This document shows, one piece after another, positions 3,909 through 13,091 of a stretch of DNA of 64,000 nt (position 1 is its first letter; every line of letters starts with the position of its first letter). Position numbers and translations under genes: made by a program. Where the stretch lies: contig NZ_JAERVJ010000007.1 of the NCBI RefSeq assembly GCF_016745395.1, positions 1-64,000 on the forward strand. Reading direction: 5' to 3'. The DNA comes from Methylocystis sp. Sn-Cys (GTDB lineage Bacteria; Pseudomonadota; Alphaproteobacteria; Rhizobiales; Beijerinckiaceae). The notes under the pieces were generated by a model. It saw only the letters and a list, made by a program, of their open reading frames with translations, was not told the origin of the DNA and did not search any database.

Positions 3909-3924
3909 TGTCGCCTTGCGAACA
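3909..3924. promoter_or_regulatory. NifA upstream activator sequence (TGT-N10-ACA)
   Basis: The sequence TGTCGCCTTGCGAACA exactly matches TGT-N10-ACA. It lies 102 bp before the -24 box of nifB and about 158 bp before the candidate nifA -24 box. The site is palindromic, so it may act in both directions. Apart from the promoters, the 437-bp nifA-nifB gap holds nothing else I can identify. Confidence 0.8.
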
Positions 3925-4025: not shown

Positions 4026-4040
4026 TGGCACGCTTGTTGC
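4026..4040 (+). promoter_or_regulatory. Sigma-54 promoter of the nifB operon
   Basis: TGGCACGCTTGTTGC matches the -24/-12 consensus TGGCACG-N4-TTGC perfectly. Transcription should begin near 4052, leaving a leader of about 80 nt before nifB. Confidence 0.92.
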
Positions 4041-4131
4041 GGTCAAACCGCCAACGCCAACGGCCGACATTGGAATTGTTCCAGACGCCCCCTCAGGGGG
4101 ACCACAACAAAATGCTTGAGAGGATTACGCA

Positions 4132-5706
4132 ATGGACGACTCTCGCTCTTTCGAAACCTATGAAGCCGAACCCACTTCCGCGCCCGCGCAGCTCGACGAC
4201 ATCATGCAGAAGATGGCCGAGCACAAAGGCTGCGGCACGTCGGGCGGCAGCGGCAAAGCTAGCTGCGGCACCGGCGCGGGCGAAAACGACATGCCCACCG
4301 AAATCTGGGAGAAAGTCAAGAACCACCCCTGCTACAGCGAAGAAGCCCACCATCACTATGCGCGCATGCATGTCGCCGTCGCGCCGGCCTGCAACATTCA
4401 GTGCAACTATTGTAACCGCAAATATGACTGCGCCAATGAATCGCGTCCCGGCGTCGTCTCCGAGAAGCTGAGCCCCGAGCAAGCCGCCAAGAAAGTGCTC
4501 GCGGTCGCCTCCGCCATTCCGCAGATGACGGTGCTCGGCATCGCCGGCCCCGGCGACCCGCTCGCCAATCCCGGCAAGACGTTCAAGACCTTCGAGCTGA
4601 TCTCGGAAGCGGCTCCGGACATCAAGCTCTGCCTCTCGACCAATGGCCTCTCGCTGCCCGACCATGTCGAGACGATCAAGAAGTTCAACGTCGATCACGT
4701 CACGATCACGATCAACATGACGGACCCGGACATCGGCGCTGAGATCTACCCCTGGGTGTTCTGGAAGCATAAGCGCGTCACGGGCAAGGAAGCTGCGAAG
4801 ATCCTCACCGATCGTCAGTTGAAGGGCCTCGAGATGCTGACGGCCAACGGCATCCTCTGCAAGGTCAACTCGGTGATGATCCCGGGCATCAACGACGACC
4901 ACCTCGTGACGGTGAACAGAGAGGTGAAATCGCGCGGCGCCTTCCTGCACAACATCATGCCGCTCATCTCGTCGCCCGAGCATGGCACGGTCTTCGGCCT
5001 CAACGGCCAGCGCGGCCCGTCCGCGCAGGAGCTGAAGGCGCTGCAGGATAGCTGCGAAGGCGAGATGAACATGATGCGCCATTGCCGCCAGTGCCGCGCC
5101 GACGCGGTGGGCCTGCTCGGCGAAGACCGCAGCGCGGAATTCACGACCGACAAGATCATGGAGATGGACGTCAATTACGACCTCTCCGCGCGTCAGGCCT
5201 ATCAGGAGAAGGTCGAGGAAGAGCGCCAGGCGAAAGTCGCCGCGCGCAACGCCGAGCTGGAAACGCTCGCTGGCGAAAACGCGGATCTCAAGATCCTCGT
5301 CGCCGTCGCGACCAAGGGCTCGGGCCGCATCAACGAGCATTTCGGCCATGCCGACGAGTTCCAGATTTACGAACTCTCCAGCAATGGCGCGAAATTCGTC
5401 GGCCATCGCCGCGTCGACCTCTACTGCCAGGGCGGCTATGGCGAGGAAGAGGCGCTCGAGACGGTCATCCGCGCGATCAACGACTGCACCGCGGTCTTCG
5501 TCGCCAAGATCGGCCACTGCCCGAAGGAAGATCTGCTGAAGGCCGGCATCGAACCCGTGGATCAATACGCCTACGAGTTCATCGAGCAGTCGGCGATCGC
5601 CTACTTCAAAGACTACCTCGCCAAGATCAAGAGCGGCGAGATCACCCATGTCACACGCGGCGACGCCACGATCCGTCAGGGCGCCTTCGTCTCCGTGGAC
5701 GCGTAG
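4132..5706 (+). CDS. nifB: FeMo-cofactor biosynthesis protein NifB
   Basis: NifB is a radical-SAM enzyme that fuses two [4Fe-4S] clusters with an interstitial carbon to form NifB-co, the 8Fe core of FeMo-co. In this 524-aa protein the SAM-cluster motif CNIQCNYC lies at residues 87-94, preceded by [17 protein letters not shown] that helps bind the substrate clusters. A C-terminal NifX/NafY-like domain (from about residue 385, [21 protein letters not shown]) completes the long NifB form. GAGAGG precedes the ATG. It heads a long operon behind a clear sigma-54 promoter and is followed by fdxN, the usual order. Confidence 0.98.
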
Positions 5707-5714
5707 CGCGCTTC

Positions 5715-5739
5715 CGATCGGGCGGAAAACGCCCGATCG
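5715..5739 (+). promoter_or_regulatory. Perfect hairpin between nifB and fdxN
   Basis: A 10-bp stem CGATCGGGCG/CGCCCGATCG with loop GAAAA lies nine bases after the nifB stop. No T-run follows, so it is more likely an mRNA-stabilising or processing hairpin than a full terminator. Confidence 0.6.
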
Positions 5740-5819
5740 ACAACAAATCGCGCTTTATCGAGATGTCGGAGCAAGTTCTCGAGGAGCTTGCTCCGAAGCC
5801 AAGCAAAGGAGCTCAGGTC

Positions 5820-6044
5820 ATGACTTACAAGATTGTCGCTTCTCAATGCACGTCGTGCTCGGCTTGCGAGGCGGAATGCCCGAACGTCGCCATCTCCGAG
5901 AAGAACGGCACCTTCGTGATCAATCCGAAAAAATGCACGGAATGCATCGGCTATTTCGACGTTCCGCAATGCGTCGCCGTCTGCCCGGTGGACGACACCT
6001 GCGTCATCGACACCTCCCTCCCCCGCTACCAGCCGAGCGCCTAA
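5820..6044 (+). CDS. fdxN: 2[4Fe-4S] ferredoxin FdxN
   Basis: FdxN is a small bacterial-type ferredoxin that supplies electrons to NifB and/or nitrogenase. The 74-aa product has a first cluster motif C10-X2-C13-X2-C16-X3-C20-P and a second C39-X2-C42-X8-C51-X3-C55-P; the eight-residue spacing in the second motif is typical of FdxN-type ferredoxins. The start at 5820 is supported by AAAGGAG eight bases upstream. Its stop overlaps the next start (TAATG), which suggests translational coupling to the A-type carrier. Confidence 0.95.
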
Positions 6045-6388
6045 TGAATATCGCCTTCACCCCCGCCGCTGAAAAATTCATCCGCCGTCTTGTCATGTTC
6101 GACGGCGGCCCGGGCTATGGCCTTCGTCTCCTCGTGTCGCCGGGCGGCTGCTCGGGCATGTCGGCGGAATTCTCCGTCGAGCCCGCGCCGAAAGAAGGCG
6201 AGCAGGTTTTCCAGCATGCGCAGTTCAAGATGTTCTTGCCCGCGCAAAGCCGCCTGCTGCTCGACGGCGTGACGATCGACTTCAAGGAAACGGCGACCTC
6301 CACGGGCTTCGCCTTCATCGATCCCAAGGCGAAGAGCTGCGGTTGCTCATCCAAGACCGAAGCTCCCGCCTTCGAGGAAACGGCGTGA
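6044..6388 (+). CDS. nif-associated A-type Fe-S carrier (HesB/IscA family)
   Basis: A-type carriers bind and deliver Fe-S clusters during maturation. The 114-aa product has the three signature cysteines, C36 in the PGGCSGMSAEF segment and C99/C101 in SCGCS near the C-terminus. Its ATG overlaps the fdxN stop codon by one base. It is one of two such genes in the window, the other being the first gene before nifU at 23031. Its place right after nifB and fdxN suggests cluster supply to NifB or to the ferredoxin; the exact client is not shown by sequence. Confidence 0.92.
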   Translation: MNIAFTPAAEKFIRRLVMFDGGPGYGLRLLVSPGGCSGMSAEFSVEPAPKEGEQVFQHAQFKMFLPAQSRLLLDGVTIDFKETATSTGFAFIDPKAKSCGCSSKTEAPAFEETA

Positions 6389-6397
6389 GAGTGTGAC

Positions 6398-6931
6398 ATG
6401 ACGCGTGACGCGGCAGTGCAAACAGGCGCGGCGGAGCAGGACTTTCTTGCTTCCATCGTCCTCGGAGAGGGGCTCCCGGAAGAGGTCGAACGCCTTTTGC
6501 ACGCCGCGGCCTTGTCTTACGATCAGGATGACGTGGCGCATAAATATCTGATGGAGGCGCGCGCGCTCGCGCCGACCCATCCGGCCACGCTGATCGGCCT
6601 CTACCGCTTCTACTTCTACAAGGGCCGCCTCAGGGAGTGCCTCGGCGTCGCCGAATCCTGCCTGACCCGCGCAGCGATCGACAATTCGCTGCCGCTCGAC
6701 TGGCGGCAAGTCACGGCGCAAGACGCCGCTTTCGGCGACTACGACGCCATCGCCCCGCGCTTCTTCATGTTCTCGCTGAAAGGCTACGCCTATCTCAGCA
6801 TGCGCCTCGGCGATTTCGAGGAAAGCGCCGCGGCGATCGACAAGCTTCTGGAGCTCGACCCGGCGGACAAGATCGGCGCGAAAGTGCTGCTCGGCGTCCT
6901 CGAACGCAGAGGGCTGGAAGATGTCGACTGA
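6398..6931 (+). CDS. nif-operon tetratricopeptide-like protein
   Basis: This 177-aa, mostly helical protein has TPR-like helix pairs, for example YLMEARALAPTHPATLIGLYRFYFYKGRLRECL-type spacing around residues 50-85 (helix, short loop, helix with small and aromatic residues) and YAYLSMRLGDFEESAAAIDK near residues 130-150. TPR folds mediate protein contacts; no catalytic residues are visible and there is no signal peptide. It lies 9 bp after the A-type carrier, and its end overlaps the LRV gene by 11 bp. A scaffold role in nitrogenase maturation is inference from context only. Confidence 0.75.
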   Translation: MTRDAAVQTGAAEQDFLASIVLGEGLPEEVERLLHAAALSYDQDDVAHKYLMEARALAPTHPATLIGLYRFYFYKGRLRECLGVAESCLTRAAIDNSLPLDWRQVTAQDAAFGDYDAIAPRFFMFSLKGYAYLSMRLGDFEESAAAIDKLLELDPADKIGAKVLLGVLERRGLEDVD

Positions 6932-7721
6932 CGATATCGACGAAGCAATCGACTGGCAGGGAAACGCCGTCGATTGCGCGGACTGTGACCATCAAGATCG
7001 CCTGAACGCCGAGCGCTGCAAGCCGCTGCGCGCCTGCGTGCACGATCGCTACGCCCGGCGCATCGACCGTTTCTTCGACTGGAATCCCGATCTCGCGCGC
7101 AATTATCTCACCCACGGCTATTTCGAGGTGCGGGCCTGCGCGTCGAAGGCGGCGGAGATCTTTCTGCTGCCCGCGATGCTCGACGATCCGGAGGAGGCGG
7201 TTCGCTGGAGCGCGGCGCGCCGCCTGCCCAACCGCTACATTCTGCGCCTGCGTAACGATCCGCACCGCGAGGTGCGCATCCGCATCGCGCTCCGCCTCGA
7301 GGGCACCGACCTGCTGCCGATGATCAACGACGAAGATTATGCGGTGCGACAGGCCGTCGCGAAAAAGCTGCCGCCGGACCTTCTCGTTCTGATGATCAAT
7401 GACGAAGACGCAGGCGTGCGCCGAGTCATTGCGAGCCGCATCGCGCAAGAGGCGCTCATGCGCCTGACGAGAGACCACGATCCGGTCGTGCGTCTCGAAG
7501 CCGCCAAGCGCCTCGAAGCGGGTGACCTCGAAACGCTGATCAAAGACGCCGATTGGCGCATTCGTTACGAAGTGGCGCAAAGAGCCGACGTCAACTTTAT
7601 CGGCGCGCTGGTCGACGACGACGATCCGCTCGTGCGCGAATGCGCAAGGGATCGGCGCAAGGCGGCCGGATTGGAAACATCCCCCAATGTCATCATGACG
7701 CAGAAGCGGAGTGATCAATGA
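6921..7721 (+). CDS. Leucine-rich-variant (LRV) repeat protein with N-terminal [4Fe-4S] module
   Basis: The 266-aa product resembles the nif-linked LRV protein of Azotobacter. An N-terminal cysteine cluster C19-X2-C22-X10-C33-X5-C39 would hold a [4Fe-4S] cluster. It is followed by roughly eight short helical repeats of about 24 residues with the pattern D-x-x-x-V-R-x-x-x-A-x-R-L (for example DPHREVRIRIALRLEG, DEDYAVRQAVAKKLPP, DHDPVVRLEAAKRLEA). Such repeats form a curved solenoid for protein binding. Its function is not established. It overlaps the TPR gene upstream and nifZ downstream (ATGA), so the products are probably translated together. Confidence 0.88.
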   Translation: MSTDDIDEAIDWQGNAVDCADCDHQDRLNAERCKPLRACVHDRYARRIDRFFDWNPDLARNYLTHGYFEVRACASKAAEIFLLPAMLDDPEEAVRWSAARRLPNRYILRLRNDPHREVRIRIALRLEGTDLLPMINDEDYAVRQAVAKKLPPDLLVLMINDEDAGVRRVIASRIAQEALMRLTRDHDPVVRLEAAKRLEAGDLETLIKDADWRIRYEVAQRADVNFIGALVDDDDPLVRECARDRRKAAGLETSPNVIMTQKRSDQ

Positions 7722-8011
7722 CAAATATCAGCAGAGACAGCGATCACGTCGAAGTCGATGGCCCGCCCTATTTCGACTATGGCGACAAGGTGCGCGCGAA
7801 ACGCACGATCCGTAACGACGGCACTTTCCCCGGCAAGGACATTGGCGAAGTTCTCGCGAAGAAGGGCGAGATTGGCTACATCGTCAATATCGGCACCTTT
7901 CTGCAGCAGTTCTACATCTATGGCGTAGAATTTGAATCTACCGGCAATCGCGTGGGTATGAAACGCAAAGAGCTGGAAATGGTCGAGATCGACAGAGAGG
8001 ATGACCGATGA
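7718..8011 (+). CDS. nifZ: Nitrogen fixation protein NifZ (first copy)
   Basis: NifZ is needed for maturation of the P-clusters of the MoFe protein. The 97-aa product has the NifZ core FDYGDKVRAKRTIRNDGTFP, followed by GEVLAKKGEIGYIVNIGTFLQQFYIYGVEF. Its ATG overlaps the LRV stop (ATGA) and its own stop overlaps the second nifZ (ATGA), so the three are translationally coupled. It is about 20 residues longer than the second copy because of extensions at both ends. Confidence 0.93.
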   Translation: MTNISRDSDHVEVDGPPYFDYGDKVRAKRTIRNDGTFPGKDIGEVLAKKGEIGYIVNIGTFLQQFYIYGVEFESTGNRVGMKRKELEMVEIDREDDR

Positions 8012-8235
8012 GCGCGAGATATGACTGGGGCCAGCGTGTGCGCGCCGCCACCGACCTCGTCAATGATGGCTCGTACCCGGATCGCGCCCTGGACGAGCTG
8101 CTGGTCAAGAATGGCGACTTGGGTGAGATCGTGAATATCGGAACCCATGTCGATACGGAGATGGTCATCTATCTCGTCGAATTTTCGCCGCAGCTCGTCA
8201 TCGGTTGCCTGGAGGACGAAATCGAGCCTGCCTGA
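8008..8235 (+). CDS. nifZ: NifZ family protein (second copy)
   Basis: This 75-aa protein has the same fold pattern as its neighbour: YDWGQRVRAATDLVNDGSYP, then DELLVKNGDLGEIVNIGTHV and a final acidic strand. The two copies are clearly divergent paralogues, not a recent duplication. Tandem nifZ genes are known in other alphaproteobacterial nif clusters. Whether the two act as a pair or serve different steps of P-cluster maturation cannot be told from the sequence. Confidence 0.9.
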   Translation: MSARYDWGQRVRAATDLVNDGSYPDRALDELLVKNGDLGEIVNIGTHVDTEMVIYLVEFSPQLVIGCLEDEIEPA

Positions 8236-8283
8236 GCCAGCCTGATTAATCTCTTTGCAACCCGCCAACGAAAGAGGCGCAAC

Positions 8284-8496
8284 GTGAAAGTCATGATCCG
8301 CAGAGACGCAGAAGGCAGCCTCTCGGCCTATGTTCCAAAGAAGGATCTCGAGGAACCGATCGTCGAGGTCGAGAGGCCCGAACTGTGGGGCGGCTCTGTC
8401 ACGCTTGCGAATGGCTGGGTGCTCAAACTTCCGGAAATGGCGGCCGGCACCTCTCTCCCGATCACCGTCGAAGCGAAAAAGATCGGAGGAGAATAA
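8284..8496 (+). CDS. nifT: Nitrogen fixation protein NifT/FixU
   Basis: NifT is a small conserved nif protein of unclear function. The 70-aa product starts MKVMIRRDAEGSLSAYVPKK and has the conserved centre E-x-P-E-LWGGSVTLANGW. The start is GTG at 8284, preceded by AGAGG; the in-frame ATG at 8293 would remove the conserved first residues. It follows the second nifZ by 48 bp and precedes a 90-aa unknown by one base. Confidence 0.93.
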   Translation: MKVMIRRDAEGSLSAYVPKKDLEEPIVEVERPELWGGSVTLANGWVLKLPEMAAGTSLPITVEAKKIGGE

Positions 8497-8497
8497 G

Positions 8498-8770
8498 ATG
8501 ACTCTCGCCCCTGCGCAGGTTGCACAAATTGACGCGGCGCTCGTGAAAGCCAGCGCCGACTCGCAGACGCTCGCGTCCATTCGCCAGCTTGCGCCGGGGC
8601 TGATGGTCACGCGCTGCGACGCGCTCGACATGCGCGAGGAGACTCCCTTCCGCATCTACGAGAACTGCTCGCTCTATCTCGTCGACGGGCGCGATCACTG
8701 CTGGAAAATCACCCAGGATCCAGGCTGCGCGACGGGCATCGCCCTCGCCCCCAATGGAGGCGCCGCATGA
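8498..8770 (+). CDS. Small nif-cluster protein of unknown function
   Basis: The 90-aa product (MTLAPAQVAQIDAALVKASA...) has a helical N-terminal half and a C-terminal half containing MVTRCDALDMREETPFRIYENCSLY and DGRDHCWKITQDPGCATGIALA. It has four cysteines, but not in a standard Fe-S motif. Small proteins of this kind occur in nif operons next to nifT; the DUF6129 family may be the right label, from memory and unverified. GGAGGAG precedes the ATG, and the stop overlaps the start of the DegT-fold gene (ATGA). Its function is unknown. Confidence 0.75.
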   Translation: MTLAPAQVAQIDAALVKASADSQTLASIRQLAPGLMVTRCDALDMREETPFRIYENCSLYLVDGRDHCWKITQDPGCATGIALAPNGGAA

Positions 8771-9918
8771 AGACTACTCTTCTGCCGTTGAACGATCCGG
8801 ATCTTGCGCAAACCGATCTCGAGGCGGTTCTCGGCGTTCTTCAATCCGCGCGCGTCTCGCAGGGCGGCGTCGTCGATCAATTCGAGGAAGAGTTCGCCCG
8901 CTACATCGGCCGCAAACATGCTGTCTGCGTTTCCAGCGGCACGATCGGCCTGCTGCTGATCCTGCGCGCGATCGGCGTCGGCGCCGGCGACGAGGTGATC
9001 GCTTCCTCCTACTCCTTCTGCGAGACCGCGCATGCGATCACGCTCTGTGGCGCCCGTCCGGTCTTCGCCGACATCGACTACTGGGCCGGCACGCTCGATC
9101 CGGAAAAGGCGCGCAAAGCGATCACGGAAAAGACCCGCGCCATTGTCGCCGGCAACACCAACGGCCATCCGGCGCCCTGGGGTCCGCTGCGGGAGATCGC
9201 GACCGCGCATAATCTCGCGCTGATCGAGGATTCGACCGAGGCGATCGGATCGATCTACCAAGGCAAGATTGTCGGTTCCTTCGGCGATTGTTCGTTGTTC
9301 GACTTCTCACAACCCGGCGGACTGATCTCCGGCGAAGGCGCGATGATCGTCACGGACAATGATGATACCGCCACCATGCTGCGCCGGCTGCGCAATCGCA
9401 AGATCGAGGAGCGCTCCTCGGTCGTGCTCGGCGCCTGGCCGCCCTTGCAGGCTGGTCTGTCGGACATTGCCGCCGCGCTCGGCCTGGCGCAACTGCGCCG
9501 CATCGAGCTGCTGCTGGCGCGCCGCAAGCGCGTCGAGCGCTACTTCCTCGAATATGTGCGTTCCTTCGAGGGCATCAAGGATCCCTATATCGCGCCCGAG
9601 GTCGATCAGGTTCACTGGTTCCTTTACGTCGTGCATCTTGGGACGCGCTTCTCGCGCTCCAGCCGCGATTCGATCATCGACGATTTGCGTCAGGAAAATG
9701 TCGAGGCGGCCGCCTTTTCGAGCCCGTTGCATCTGCAACGTCACTACTTCGATCTCGGCTATCGGCGCGGCGATTTGTTCGTGACCGAAAAAGTCGCGGA
9801 CCGCGCCGTCGCCCTGCCCTTCCACGCCCACCTCTCCGAAGACCAGGTCGCGTTCATCGTGGGCACGATGAAGGACGCGTCGATCAATGTCGGCGCCGGA
9901 ACCGCCATCTACCTTTAA
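8767..9918 (+). CDS. DegT/DnrJ/EryC1/StrS-fold protein lacking the PLP lysine
   Basis: The 383-aa protein has the length and layout of the DegT/StrS sugar aminotransferases: SSGTIGLLLILRA near residue 58, a GAGDEVIASSYSF strand, ALIEDSTEAIGS with the Asp that contacts the pyridine nitrogen, and LSDIAAALGLAQL. At the PLP site, however, where the family reads K-x-L-x-T-G-E-G, this protein reads G184-G-L-I-S-G-E-G, with no lysine in the loop (residues 179-191 are DFSQPGGLISGEG). Normal transaminase chemistry is therefore doubtful. It sits mid-operon, overlapping the upstream gene, so a nif role is likely but undefined. Confidence 0.85.
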   Translation: MKTTLLPLNDPDLAQTDLEAVLGVLQSARVSQGGVVDQFEEEFARYIGRKHAVCVSSGTIGLLLILRAIGVGAGDEVIASSYSFCETAHAITLCGARPVFADIDYWAGTLDPEKARKAITEKTRAIVAGNTNGHPAPWGPLREIATAHNLALIEDSTEAIGSIYQGKIVGSFGDCSLFDFSQPGGLISGEGAMIVTDNDDTATMLRRLRNRKIEERSSVVLGAWPPLQAGLSDIAAALGLAQLRRIELLLARRKRVERYFLEYVRSFEGIKDPYIAPEVDQVHWFLYVVHLGTRFSRSSRDSIIDDLRQENVEAAAFSSPLHLQRHYFDLGYRRGDLFVTEKVADRAVALPFHAHLSEDQVAFIVGTMKDASINVGAGTAIYL

Positions 9919-9957: not shown

Positions 9958-10263
9958 ATGCCTACCGTGACCATTCTTCCCTCGGGCAAGACCGTCGAAG
10001 CCGCGACCGGCAGCCGTCTGCTCGACGCCATTCTCGCGGCAGGCGAACCGATCGTCAGCAAATGCGGCGGCGAAGCGAAATGCGGCGCGTGCCATCTCTT
10101 CGTGCAGGAAGGCAGGAAGAGCCTGTCGAAAACCACGCGCGCTGAAAATGAGAAGCTCGACTCCATTGTCGGCGTCGGCTCGAAATCACGTCTCGCCTGT
10201 CAGGCCATGCTCGGCGCCGAAAATGTAACGGTGGAGTTGCTGGGCTTCGGCTCCGGCTTTTAG
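9958..10263 (+). CDS. [2Fe-2S] ferredoxin, nif-associated
   Basis: This 101-aa ferredoxin has the cluster motif C-X5-C-X2-C (KCGGEAKCGAC) and a fourth cysteine in RLACQAM, within a beta-grasp pattern starting MPTVTILPSGKTVEAATG. It would carry electrons in the cytoplasm, perhaps to nitrogenase or cofactor assembly. The start at 9958 is chosen because AAGGAG lies upstream; an ATG at 9928 lacks such a site. It is one of six ferredoxin-like genes in the nif/fix region. Confidence 0.92.
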   Translation: MPTVTILPSGKTVEAATGSRLLDAILAAGEPIVSKCGGEAKCGACHLFVQEGRKSLSKTTRAENEKLDSIVGVGSKSRLACQAMLGAENVTVELLGFGSGF

Positions 10264-10282: not shown

Positions 10283-10495
10283 ATGACAGACACAGTCCTG
10301 ATCCACGTCCGTTTCAACAATGACGGCAGCGTGCTCGAGATCCAGGATCGTCCGACGAGCCTCACGCCCGAGCAATGGTTCACCAAGCTCTCGGAGAAAG
10401 CCGCGAACAGCTTCCAGGCGCTCACCGGCGGTCGCGGCGTGTTCCGCGTTTCGTCCGACGACGTCACGGCGCTGAAGGCGGCTGTTCTGCAGTAA
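10283..10495 (+). CDS. Conserved-looking 70-aa protein of the nifB operon
   Basis: The product begins MTDTVLIHVRFNNDGSVLEI, continues DRPTSLTPEQWFTKLSEKAA and ends with a short strand-helix GRGVFRVSSDDVTALKAAVL. No cysteines, signal peptide or membrane segment are present. A strong AAAGGAGA site precedes the ATG, and codon use matches the neighbours, so it is probably real. It lies between the [2Fe-2S] ferredoxin and the SIR2-like gene. I do not recognise the family; a beta-alpha fold of partner-binding type is only a guess. Confidence 0.7.
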   Translation: MTDTVLIHVRFNNDGSVLEIQDRPTSLTPEQWFTKLSEKAANSFQALTGGRGVFRVSSDDVTALKAAVLQ

Positions 10496-10532: not shown

Positions 10533-11417
10533 ATGCTCAGTGAAATCGTAACGGCCTTTCGTCGAGGCGACGTGATTCCTTATCTGGGGCCGGGCGTGAC
10601 CGGCCTCCCCGGGGAGGCGGCGCCACCGTCGCTTCCCGAAATTCTCGTGCAGCAACTCGTCGCTGGCGCGACGGTGCCGCATAAAATCCGCAACAATCTC
10701 ACAGCGGCTTCGCAATATATCGAGAATTTCAAACATCGCAAGACGCTGACCTGTCTGATGGCCAAGGCCTTTGCAGTCGAGTGTGAGCCGAGCGCCTTTC
10801 ACAAGTGGCTCGCGACGCAAGAGCAACTGCCGTTGATCGTGCACGCCTGGTACGACGATCTCGTCGTCAAATCCATGGCGGCGCGGAGCGATTGGGGTCT
10901 TGTTCAGGGCGTGACGCAAAGCGAACATTTCGGCGACTGGGTGAATTGGTTCCGCGCCGACCTCTCCGCCGTCCCGACGAAGGAATTCATCCGCGACGGC
11001 TCGGGCGCCAAGGCGCCTGCGGAAGCGCCGGACGAGACGCTCAAATGGCGCACGCTCGTCTATGAACCGCTTGGCGCCGTGACGCCTGCGTCGAACTTCA
11101 TCGTGTCCGACTCCGACTATGTCGAAGTGCTGACGGAGATCGACATCCAAACACCGATCCCCGACTCGGTGCAGACCATCCGCAAGGGACGCAACTTCCT
11201 CTTCCTCGGCTGTCGCTTCACCAACCAGTTGGAGCGCAGCTTCGCGCGCCAGATCATGAAGCGCTCCTCGGACACGCATTGGGCTTTGATCGAGGGCGAG
11301 CTGACGCGCAACGAGGAGAAATTCCTGCGCGAGCAAAATATCCAGCGCATCGACGCCAAGCTTGCGGATTTTGCCGCCGAGCTGGCCCAATCCAATCTCG
11401 CCGCCGTCGCCGCTTGA
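10533..11417 (+). CDS. SIR2-like domain protein lacking the catalytic histidine
   Basis: SIR2-type domains bind NAD and in active members deacylate or hydrolyse it. The 294-aa product has the N-terminal nucleotide-binding signature GDVIPYLGPGVTGLPGEAAP, and near the C-terminus RNFLFLGCRFTNQLERSFARQI, the usual 'FLGYSLSD' region. The segment that normally reads Y-K-L-H-G, giving the catalytic His, here reads Y177-E-P-L180-G, so His is replaced by Leu. The acceptor region FIVSDSDYVEVL is otherwise conserved. GAGAGG precedes the ATG. Its place inside the nifB operon suggests NAD sensing or a structural role; activity is doubtful. Confidence 0.82.
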   Translation: MLSEIVTAFRRGDVIPYLGPGVTGLPGEAAPPSLPEILVQQLVAGATVPHKIRNNLTAASQYIENFKHRKTLTCLMAKAFAVECEPSAFHKWLATQEQLPLIVHAWYDDLVVKSMAARSDWGLVQGVTQSEHFGDWVNWFRADLSAVPTKEFIRDGSGAKAPAEAPDETLKWRTLVYEPLGAVTPASNFIVSDSDYVEVLTEIDIQTPIPDSVQTIRKGRNFLFLGCRFTNQLERSFARQIMKRSSDTHWALIEGELTRNEEKFLREQNIQRIDAKLADFAAELAQSNLAAVAA

Positions 11418-11431
11418 GTGAAAGAGAGAGA

Positions 11432-11764
11432 ATGATCGAGGATCTTCCGCAAGTCTTCAAATACCACGTCTTCACTTGCTTTCAGCAGCGCCCGACGGGA
11501 CATCCGCGCGGCAGTTGCATGACCTCCGGCGGAAAGCCCTTGTGGGACCGCCTGCAGGCAAAGCTCAATGTGCAGCCCAACCCCGATATTTCCGTGACGG
11601 CGACCGGTTGCCTCGGCTTTTGCCGCGCGGGCCCGCTGATGGTCGTTTACCCGGAGGGCGTTTGGTATACGCCGCGCACGGAAGCCGACATCGACGAAAT
11701 CTTCCAATCGCATTTCACCGAGGGCAAGCCGGTCGAGCGGTTGATTATCGTGCCGCAGCTTTGA
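11432..11764 (+). CDS. Thioredoxin-fold [2Fe-2S] ferredoxin (Shethna-I/Aquifex Fd type)
   Basis: The 110-aa protein matches the thioredoxin-like [2Fe-2S] ferredoxins linked to nif genes in Azotobacter. Cluster ligands are C16, C29, C60 and C64 in the pattern C-X12-C...TGCLGFCRAGP. The core YHVFTCFQQRPTGHPRGSC and VVYPEGVWYTPRTEADIDEI is typical. AGAGAGA precedes the ATG, 14 bp after the SIR2-like gene. It is the last gene of the nifB operon and is followed by a strong intrinsic terminator. Its partner is unknown; protective or electron-transfer roles are discussed for the family. Confidence 0.93.
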   Translation: MIEDLPQVFKYHVFTCFQQRPTGHPRGSCMTSGGKPLWDRLQAKLNVQPNPDISVTATGCLGFCRAGPLMVVYPEGVWYTPRTEADIDEIFQSHFTEGKPVERLIIVPQL

Positions 11765-11816: not shown

Positions 11817-11830
11817 CATTGTCGTAGAGC

Positions 11831-12170
11831 CGTCATTGCGAGGAGTGGAGCGACGAAGCGATCCAGGGTCGTCGTAGCTGCCTGGATTGCTTCGCTCCGC
11901 TCGCAATGACGAGGTTAGCGTTGGGCCCGAACCCGGCAGGGCGCGGACAAACTCAGAGCCGTCATTGCGAGGAGCGAAGCGACGAAGCAATCCAGGGCCG
12001 TCGTAGCTGCTCTGGATTGCTTCGCTTCGCTCGCAATGACGAGGTAGCGCTGGACCTCAACCCGGCACGGCGCGGACAAACTCAGAGCCGTCATTGCGAG
12101 GAGCGAAGCGACGAAGCAATCCAGGGCCGCCGTAGCTGCCCTGGATTGCTTCGCTCCGCTCGCAATGACG
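11831..12170. repeat. Three-copy tandem array of family A palindromic repeats (129-bp period)
   Basis: Copies at 11831-11911, 11960-12041 and 12089-12170 each begin CGTCATTGCGAGGAG and end with the inverted CTCGCAATGACG. The 48-bp spacers are also alike (both end GCGGACAAACTCAGAGC), so the real repeat unit is 129 bp. The array fills most of the 413-bp gap between the nifB operon and the globin gene; I see no gene there. Confidence 0.9.
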
Positions 12171-12177
12171 GAGTTGC

Positions 12178-12597
12178 TTACACCGGTTCCTTCGACGGGT
12201 TCCCCTCCGCGTCCTTGAATGGAAACAACCCCGACTGGAAACATTGCGTCATATGTTCCGCCCGAGCGATTGCGGCCGAGGCCAGCTCCTCGGGCATCGT
12301 CTCTTTCGCAGCCTCGGTGAAAAGCGACAACCAGCGGGGAAAATGTTCGACTTCGATCGGCAGCTTCACATGAACGCCGAAGGGCGTGCCCTGATAGCGC
12401 GTCGTTCCCAGAAGCGCATGCGACCAGAAATTCGAAACGATCTCCAGATGCGGCTCCAGCTCGGCGATCGTCTTTTCGAAGACGGGACCAAGCAAGGGAT
12501 CGGCGCCGCCTTTCTCGTAGAAGCGCGTGACGCAGGCGCGAATGGCCGCTTCTGCGCTGGCATTGTCCGCTTTGGCCTCCTCAACCGCCGTTTCCAT
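12178..12597 (-). CDS. Group III truncated haemoglobin
   Basis: This 139-aa globin has the group III pattern: FYEKGGADPLLGPVFEKTI, then NFWSHALLGTTRYQGTP, the H-x-x-L-P segment and EHFPRWLSLF with the likely proximal His. Such globins bind O2 or NO. The ATG at 12597 follows GAGGAGGCGAC; upstream in-frame starts would run through the next gene's end. It lies 17 bp after the receiver gene on the same strand, so the two form an operon divergent from nifH. A role in guarding nitrogenase from O2 or NO is inference from location. Confidence 0.9.
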   Translation of the reverse strand: METAVEEAKADNASAEAAIRACVTRFYEKGGADPLLGPVFEKTIAELEPHLEIVSNFWSHALLGTTRYQGTPFGVHVKLPIEVEHFPRWLSLFTEAAKETMPEELASAAIARAEHMTQCFQSGLFPFKDAEGNPSKEPV

Positions 12598-12614
12598 TGT
12601 CGCCTCCTCGTCGC

Positions 12615-13052
12615 TCAGCGCACATTGAGCACGGTCAGCGGAATTGTCACGCCGCCCGTGCCGCGGCCAAGCATCGCGTCCACCTTCTGACGAACGAATT
12701 CCACCTTCAGAGGCTTGGCGATAAAGCCATGAGCGCCGGCCGCAACGCATTCCTTGCCGAAGGCATTGTTATTCGGCTCGACCACGATCAGAATTTTCGC
12801 CTGAGGCTGCTCCTGCCGAAATTTGCCCAGAAGCGCCAATCCCTCTGCCTGCGGCAGAGTTTCCGCGAGAAGAATGAGATCCGGCGGCTGCGTCTTACCC
12901 TTTTCGAAAGCGATCGCCGTGCTCGCCACTTCATGCGCCTCGAATTCGTCGTGCAACATGAACTGAAGCGCCGCGCGAAAGATCTCATTGTCGTCGACAA
13001 TGAACACCCGCTTGTTCTCCAGCGCCTTCGACATTTCCACGCCGATCTGCAT
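12615..13052 (-). CDS. Receiver-domain protein without the phospho-acceptor Asp
   Basis: The 145-aa product is a single CheY-like receiver with no output domain. The acidic pair is present (RVFIVDDNEIFRAAL, D20-D21), as is the conserved lysine (GFIAKPL, K113). The phosphorylation site, normally PDLVLLDxxLP, reads PDLILLAETLP, with Ala63 in place of Asp, and the Thr/Ser switch position is also lost (LIVVEPN). It is therefore probably a pseudo-receiver. The ATG at 13052 is chosen for AGGTAAGGGA upstream; a GTG at 13070 is in frame. It precedes the globin gene and is divergent from nifH, with a sigma-54-like element upstream. Confidence 0.82.
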   Translation of the reverse strand: MQIGVEMSKALENKRVFIVDDNEIFRAALQFMLHDEFEAHEVASTAIAFEKGKTQPPDLILLAETLPQAEGLALLGKFRQEQPQAKILIVVEPNNNAFGKECVAAGAHGFIAKPLKVEFVRQKVDAMLGRGTGGVTIPLTVLNVR

Positions 13053-13091
13053 TTCCCTTACCTCGTTCACGTTGCGATTGCCCGTTTTTCA

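Follow-up and report, generated by a model that had tools for sequence, protein, structure and literature searches.

Can a protein built like a sugar aminotransferase still be one when the lysine that should hold its cofactor is missing, and what would such a protein do among nitrogen fixation genes? This question is raised by an open reading frame at positions 8767-9918 (plus strand, ATG to TAA, 383 amino acids) of the window, that is, the whole stretch of 64,000 nucleotides analysed here. Public annotation calls its homologues "DegT/DnrJ/EryC1/StrS family aminotransferase". The closest named relatives of the locus belong to Methylocystis and Methylosinus (among the best 80 of 242 encoding stretches) and the genome encodes a gene of the AMO/pMMO family (PF02461, E-value 2.9e-109); a methanotroph of the Methylocystis/Methylosinus group is therefore the probable host.

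Both homology and fold place the protein in the DegT/DnrJ/EryC1/StrS family, as a preliminary description of the locus had proposed from its layout. The PF01041 profile matches residues 13-368 (E-value 1.3e-86, 291.5 bits against a cut-off of 19.8), and the AlphaFold monomer model (65 sequences, mean pLDDT 83.9, pTM 0.87) has GDP-perosamine synthase 3bn1 as its top Foldseek match (TM 0.86/0.90). None of the NCBIfam sugar aminotransferase equivalogs (PseC, ArnB, DesI, WecE and others) reached its cut-off among the 21 families listed, the best score being that of PseC (222.5 bits against 423.5). In its own genome, a search with the sequence of the reading frame at an E-value of 1e-5 returned no match beyond itself; the PF01041 profile found 12 matches, of which this reading frame is by far the best (1.2e-86, the next being 1.4e-26).

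The gene is located within a co-directional run extending from nifB (starting at 4132) to a SIR2-like gene (ending at 11417), with nifA divergent upstream. The run lies behind sigma-54-like and NifA-type sites, which bears out the location in a nifB operon given in the preliminary description. Its features, all on the plus strand, are as follows.

3909-3924, plus strand: NifA-type upstream site TGT-N10-ACA (motif scan)
4026-4041, plus strand: sigma-54-type promoter site upstream of nifB (one mismatch)
4132-5706, plus strand: nifB (TIGR01290, 2.8e-204)
5820-6044, plus strand: FdxN-type ferredoxin (assigned from its reading frame and its similarity to a gene annotated in locus L128)
6044-6388, plus strand: HesB/IscA-type protein (TIGR00049, 1.8e-19), within a longer open reading frame, 5648-6388
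6398-6931, plus strand: TPR-like nif-operon protein (weak TPR matches; 66 of 84 loci)
6921-7721, plus strand: LRV protein with FeS4 domain (PF05484, 8.3e-25)
7718-8011, plus strand: first NifZ (PF04319, 5.9e-32)
8008-8235, plus strand: second NifZ (PF04319, 1.3e-26)
8284-8496, plus strand: NifT (PF06988, 7.9e-31)
8498-8770, plus strand: DUF6129-type protein, 90 amino acids (relatives match PF19624; 83 of 84 loci)
8767-9918, plus strand: lysine-less DegT/StrS-fold protein, 383 amino acids (PF01041, AlphaFold, Foldseek)
9298-9345, plus strand: cofactor-loop codons, residues 178-193, with D179 for Ser and G184 for Lys (alignments)
9883-9915, plus strand: C-terminal tail, codons 373-383 (conserved, unordered in the monomer model)
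9958-10263, plus strand: plant-type 2Fe-2S ferredoxin (PF00111, 1.8e-10; 75 of 84 loci)
10283-10495, plus strand: small conserved nif-operon protein, 70 amino acids (69 of 84 loci; no Pfam or NCBIfam match)
10533-11417, plus strand: SIR2-like protein (PF13289, 3.4e-18; 75 of 84 loci)

Three sigma-54-type sites were found in the window for 0.90 expected (6 of 100 shuffles reach three), and each of them has a NifA-type site 78-117 bases upstream; NifA-type sites themselves number four for 3.28 expected, a number that proves nothing. The ATG of the DegT gene is overlapped by the stop codon TGA (8768-8770) of the preceding DUF6129-type gene, a 4-nt overlap, and the proposed translational coupling inside the operon was thereby confirmed in the reading of the frames. 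The SIR2-like gene is followed by a thioredoxin-like 2Fe-2S ferredoxin (11432-11764; PF01257, 6.6e-6), the second 2Fe-2S protein of the run. Beyond it, direct repeats with steps of 129-130 nt occupy positions 11826-12175 (56-nt and 36-nt units in three copies each, the copies being 91-94% identical to the first); they contain a palindrome-like element whose translation reads HCEERSDEAIQ, and a 155-amino acid open reading frame lying over them (11906-12373) is probably not a gene. On the minus strand, the interval between the nifB and nifH operons encodes a globin of bacterial type (PF01152) at 12178-12750 and a response-regulator receiver (PF00072) at 12615-13070.

The preliminary description had also stated that the cofactor loop contains no lysine, and we found this to be correct: residues 178-193 read FDFSQPGGLISGEGAM, Gly184 stands at the position of the PLP lysine and residues 176-196 are free of lysine. 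In the alignment with PDB entries, Gly184 is paired with the residue that was replaced in 3dr4, a GDP-perosamine synthase carrying K186A according to the entry title. Homologues of the same nif-linked type were detected in 29 of 101 relative genomes. The 80 loci compared are the best 80 of 242 encoding stretches and lean to close relatives (at least 61% identity there), and four plasmid loci exceed 50% identity among the matches listed. The 113 proteins retained (L001-L110 and L128-L130) amount to 101 distinct sequences, hereafter referred to as nif-type; a frameshifted plasmid copy (L131), which has Leu at position 184, is excluded from the 101.

The Schiff-base lysine of DegT/StrS PLP aminotransferases is absent from position 184 in all 101 distinct nif-type sequences (55 Gly, 32 Ser, 6 Leu, 5 Phe and one each of Ala, Met and Val), and none of them carries a lysine anywhere in residues 176-196. 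In a joint alignment of 67 DegT proteins, the same column holds lysine in all 30 canonical proteins and in none of the 37 nif-type ones; 24 of the canonical proteins (L139-L162) are represented by their locally aligned part only. Pairwise alignments made the lysine seem absent, through a gap, from five canonical rows (L140, L142, L145, L147, and L157); the multiple alignment shows it in all 30, these five included. The phylum search added four nif-type proteins, whose residues at position 184 are L, G, S and Q (Q in L138), and no nif-linked homologue with lysine was found among those examined. A displacement of the lysine by one residue was considered and rejected, as the 101 nif-type rows lack lysine throughout 176-196. 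A glycine fixed in nif-linked members, which the preliminary description had envisaged, was rejected as well: the residue is variable (Gly in 55 of 101, with S, L, F, A, M and V in the others and Q in L138). The histidine of ColD, which it had mentioned as an alternative residue, was never found at this position, either in the 101 sequences or in L138.

Lysine-bearing homologues in nif clusters, or an active-site lysine supplied from elsewhere, had been named as findings that would weaken a pseudoenzyme reading, and the alignments revealed neither. A working aminotransferase taking its Schiff-base lysine from elsewhere in the protein, or from the neighbouring subunit, could make use of lysines 114, 271, 342, and 369, which are nearly invariant in the nif-type set. 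None of these four, however, is located in the segments aligned with the cofactor-binding loops, where the 101 sequences have no conserved lysine at all, and the phosphate serine is lost too, so that we regard such an enzyme as very improbable. The missing lysine alone cannot prove that the cofactor was lost, since lysine mutants of ArnB (K188A, 4oca) and WbpE (K185A, 3nys) were crystallised with PLP (PDB entry titles).

Could the gene simply be a decaying remnant, or its sequence an artefact? One relative does carry a frameshifted copy, at positions 7829-8951 of a plasmid locus of Bradyrhizobium sp. BWA-3-5 from a peanut nodule (L131), and the gene is perhaps dispensable in symbiosis. Against decay, there are 101 distinct homologues forming one clade with constant neighbours, and dN/dS ratios between the window gene and nine relatives are low (0.076-0.188; in four of the nine comparisons dS exceeds 1 and is rough). 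The DegT gene is under purifying selection, and the pseudogene reading was rejected on account of the constant neighbours, low dN/dS and single clade; that decay or an error lies behind the missing lysine can hardly be believed.

The clade is sharply delimited. In the phylum search, nif-type proteins scored 6.6e-111 or better and the next best match 1.6e-61, and the 24 next-best proteins (L139-L162) all bear the lysine. In a tree of the 37 nif-type and 30 canonical proteins, the nif-type proteins stand on one branch with 100/100 support, and a single change accounts for the distribution of the lysine. The stem of this branch is long (1.04 changes per column), and long branches beside and within the clade (L126, L138) leave the exact sister group unsure.

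What remains of the cofactor site? Aspartate 155, the partner of the pyridine N1, is kept in 101 of 101 nif-type sequences, as are Glu158 and Gly191, while Thr59 is found in 94, an aromatic residue at position 84 in 100, and Glu190 in 93 of the 101. Some of a B6 site thus remains, since Asp155, Glu158, Thr59, the aromatic residue and the GEG turn have for the most part been retained. In Spr1654, according to the accessible text of its structural description (PMC5936713), the PLP phosphate is hydrogen-bonded by Thr59 and by Ser194, five residues before Lys199, while Asp170 holds N1 and Tyr84 contacts the ring. By spacing and motifs, position 179 would correspond to this phosphate serine. Its occupant is Asp in 101 of 101 nif-type sequences versus Ser in 29 of 30 canonical ones, so that the serine of the phosphate cup is gone from the whole set. 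We consider that this replacement says more about the cofactor site than the lysine position does: an invariant carboxylate at this place would not easily be reconciled with PLP, and Asp179 probably disfavours binding of its phosphate.

Other positions have changed as well. Residue 130 is Asn in 101 of 101 nif-type sequences versus His in 27 of 30 canonical ones; position 85 is occupied by Arg or His in 100 of 101, versus Val, Ile, Ala, Cys or Pro; and position 86 is Glu or Gln in 101 of 101, versus Ala, Ser or Gly. Similarly, nif-type proteins mostly have Ser at 181, where canonical ones show Tyr, His, Phe, Gln or Cys; Gln at 228, where 28 of the 30 canonical proteins have Asn or Lys; and small residues at 230, where 29 of the 30 have Arg or Asn. 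The only well conserved Cys column is at 188 (94 of 101). The window protein itself has Cys85, where the other 100 have Arg or His, and is one of two with Ser at 188, possibly a compensated swap.

These residues bear on the main enzymatic rival, namely that the protein is a B6 enzyme of another type, holding PMP or PLP non-covalently, relying on an acid/base group that is not lysine, as ColD or E1/SpnQ do, and fed by the 2Fe-2S ferredoxin encoded next to it. Those proteins are relatives in fold and have another residue in place of the lysine; ferredoxin/ferredoxin reductase can serve SpnQ, and both E1 and SpnQ carry a 2Fe-2S cluster, as stated in the accessible text of a published account (PMC8987622). 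Asp155 is kept here, and a 2Fe-2S ferredoxin gene, located just downstream in the window, occurs in 75 of 84 loci. On the other hand, His184 occurs in 0 of 101 sequences, the single well conserved Cys column of the 101 (Ser188 in the window protein) leaves no four-Cys 2Fe-2S cluster like that of E1 and SpnQ, Asp179 opposes the phosphate, and no nucleotide-sugar gene is annotated adjoining the DegT gene in the four loci L128-L131. Chemistry of this kind thus appears improbable, if less so than a lysine from elsewhere.

The main non-enzymatic rival is a pure structural scaffold, whose pocket would be empty, solvent-filled or self-plugged and whose pocket residues would merely hold the fold and the dimer. 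Position 184 is variable (entropy 1.66 bits) although invariant residues lie nearby, as might be expected if it no longer had a role. In the monomer model, moreover, two stretches besides the N-terminus are of low confidence, residues 213-225 and residues 373-383 (pLDDT below 50 for the latter), even though both include invariant residues (R216 and S218 in the former stretch; N374, G376, A377, G378, and I381 in the tail), as would be expected for partner contacts. The tail motif N-x-GAG (N374, G376-A377-G378) is present in 101 of 101 nif-type sequences versus 0 of 6 canonical proteins, a comparison limited to the six full-length ones, of which three extend into this part of the alignment but lack the motif. 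The active site of Spr1654 is built by both subunits, and its flexible stretch 235-248 is thought to be involved in substrate binding (PMC5936713, accessible text). By analogy with these two features, and given the invariant residues in question, 213-225 and 373-383 may become ordered upon dimerisation or partner binding. What speaks against a plain scaffold is the pocket: positions 130, 155, 158, and 179 are invariant, and two of them, 130 and 179, have become fixed for a residue that differs from the canonical one, a pattern that points to selection for a function more than to simple persistence. We therefore consider this explanation rather unlikely, while giving it more weight than the enzymatic ones.

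The setting of the gene is constant. At all 84 loci its neighbours are nif-cluster genes: NifZ2 and DUF6129 at 83 each, NifZ1 at 82, NifT, the 2Fe-2S ferredoxin and SIR2 at 75 each, NifB and DUF3024 at 70 each, the small protein at 69, LRV-FeS4 and the TPR protein at 66 each, and a NifS-like protein at 63. Of the 14 loci without nifB in view, eight are on contigs starting inside the cluster (L037, L040, L050, L051, L054, L060, L064, and L102); at six Methylocystis-type loci (L071, L080, L090, L092, L093, and L097), nifB is not within 8 kb upstream, so the DegT gene is tied to the nif cluster and not strictly to the nifB operon. Methylocystis-type loci show a compact arrangement, nifB-nifZ-nifZ-DUF3024-DUF6129-DegT (L048, L056, L076, L101, and L166), and a second one, HesB-NifS-NifT-SIR2-nifZ-nifZ-DUF3024-DUF6129-DegT, with nifB not within 8 kb upstream; two genomes (G029 and G032) have two copies of the DegT gene. 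In Methylococcus, the NifS-like neighbour has retained its SGHK lysine motif and, at the C-terminus, a Cys motif, so lysine loss is not general to the B6 folds of the operon.

Co-occurrence with NifB, a check proposed in the preliminary description, followed the same pattern. Among the 101 relative genomes, 37 have NifB above cut-off and 27 of these also have the DegT protein; of the two carriers without NifB above cut-off, one is a genome only 59% complete that has a fragment of nifB, and in the other a contig ends inside nifB. In 398 sampled genomes of the phylum, all six carriers are among the 43 with NifB. Conversely, 10 of the 37 and 37 of the 43 NifB-bearing genomes lack the DegT gene (at most four first-look candidates were scored per genome in the phylum surveys, so copies may be missed). 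The protein is a dependent but optional companion of NifB, and its absence from many NifB genomes indicates that it is not essential to nitrogenase in general.

The DUF6129-type protein is its most regular neighbour together with NifZ2. In 24 of 83 loci its stop codon and the DegT start share 4 nt, and in three they share 1 nt (start codons being script-chosen for this count). At an E-value of 0.01, 33 of 46 aligned relatives match PF19624, and the window copy gave no match. DUF6129 was found in nine of the 398 phylum genomes, all with NifB; as four of these nine lack the DegT protein, we rejected it as an obligate partner, and no copy was seen next to L163, the most divergent homologue. Its AlphaFold model is confident (pLDDT 89.7) and had no significant Foldseek match in the PDB (best E-value 0.6). 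It looks like a separate unnamed nif protein.

We propose, as a reading that may equally well prove right or wrong, that the DegT protein is a nif-specific pseudo-aminotransferase, dead as a transaminase, with a remodelled pocket, acting as an accessory factor in nitrogenase maturation. Transamination would have been lost once, at the base of the clade, the DegT/StrS fold and its interfacial pocket being kept for another purpose. The protein is probably a homodimer like its relatives, and the altered pocket would hold a partner other than PLP, which might be a small ligand or else a peptide (for instance its own conserved GAG-x-AIY tail, or a segment of an operon partner). The dimer might then serve as a docking or stabilising factor in Fe-S/FeMo-cofactor maturation, together with NifZ, NifT, HesB, the ferredoxins and DUF6129. 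More tentatively, and with considerable doubt on our part, the ancestral B6 pocket could have become a binding site for a molecule of nitrogenase maturation, be it an organic acid, a precursor of a metal site or cluster, or a partner's peptide. Some diazotrophs would then possess a Nif factor that has so far gone without a name and that acts at a stage between NifB and the completed enzyme.

Under the pseudo-aminotransferase reading, the aminotransferase annotation is very likely wrong for the whole nif-linked clade. The protein becomes a candidate unnamed accessory factor, of relevance for moving nitrogen fixation into new hosts, and the clade would clearly illustrate how the fold of an enzyme can be put to new use once its catalytic residue has been lost in one event. 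Our literature searches (DegT with nif terms, and nif-operon terms, with subscription journals mostly outside their reach) found no description of the DegT protein among the matches listed, and searches on nifZ, nifT and DUF6129 found no use of the name DUF6129 among the matches listed.

Among described operons, that of Rhodobacter capsulatus, nifB1-rcc03265-nifZT-rcc03262, is NifA-dependent and shares nifB, nifZ, nifT and a SIR2 family gene (Rcc03262, also NifA-dependent) with the window operon; unlike the latter, it has no DegT gene listed in the accessible text (PMC6925177), from which it seems that operons of the nifB-nifZT-SIR2 type can do without one. Similarly, an acid-mine fosmid carries nifB-orf3-nifZ-nifS-orf4, with no mention of DegT in the accessible part of its description (PMC3912193). 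Among lysine-less proteins, the sugar 3-dehydratases ColD, E1 and SpnQ likewise have an aminotransferase-type fold without the catalytic lysine, but, as far as their accessible descriptions go, they have His in its place and bind PMP, and E1 and SpnQ add four Cys for a 2Fe-2S cluster, neither the His nor the four Cys being seen in nif-type proteins. The nucleotide-sugar aminotransferases (GDP-perosamine synthase 3bn1/3dr4 and ArnB 1mdo) share with the nif-type proteins the whole fold, about 33% identity, the pyridine Asp and the GEG turn. In contrast to them, the nif-type proteins have no lysine, an Asp for the Ser of the phosphate cup, charged residues at positions 85/86, an invariant C-terminal N-x-GAG tail and a setting in nif clusters.
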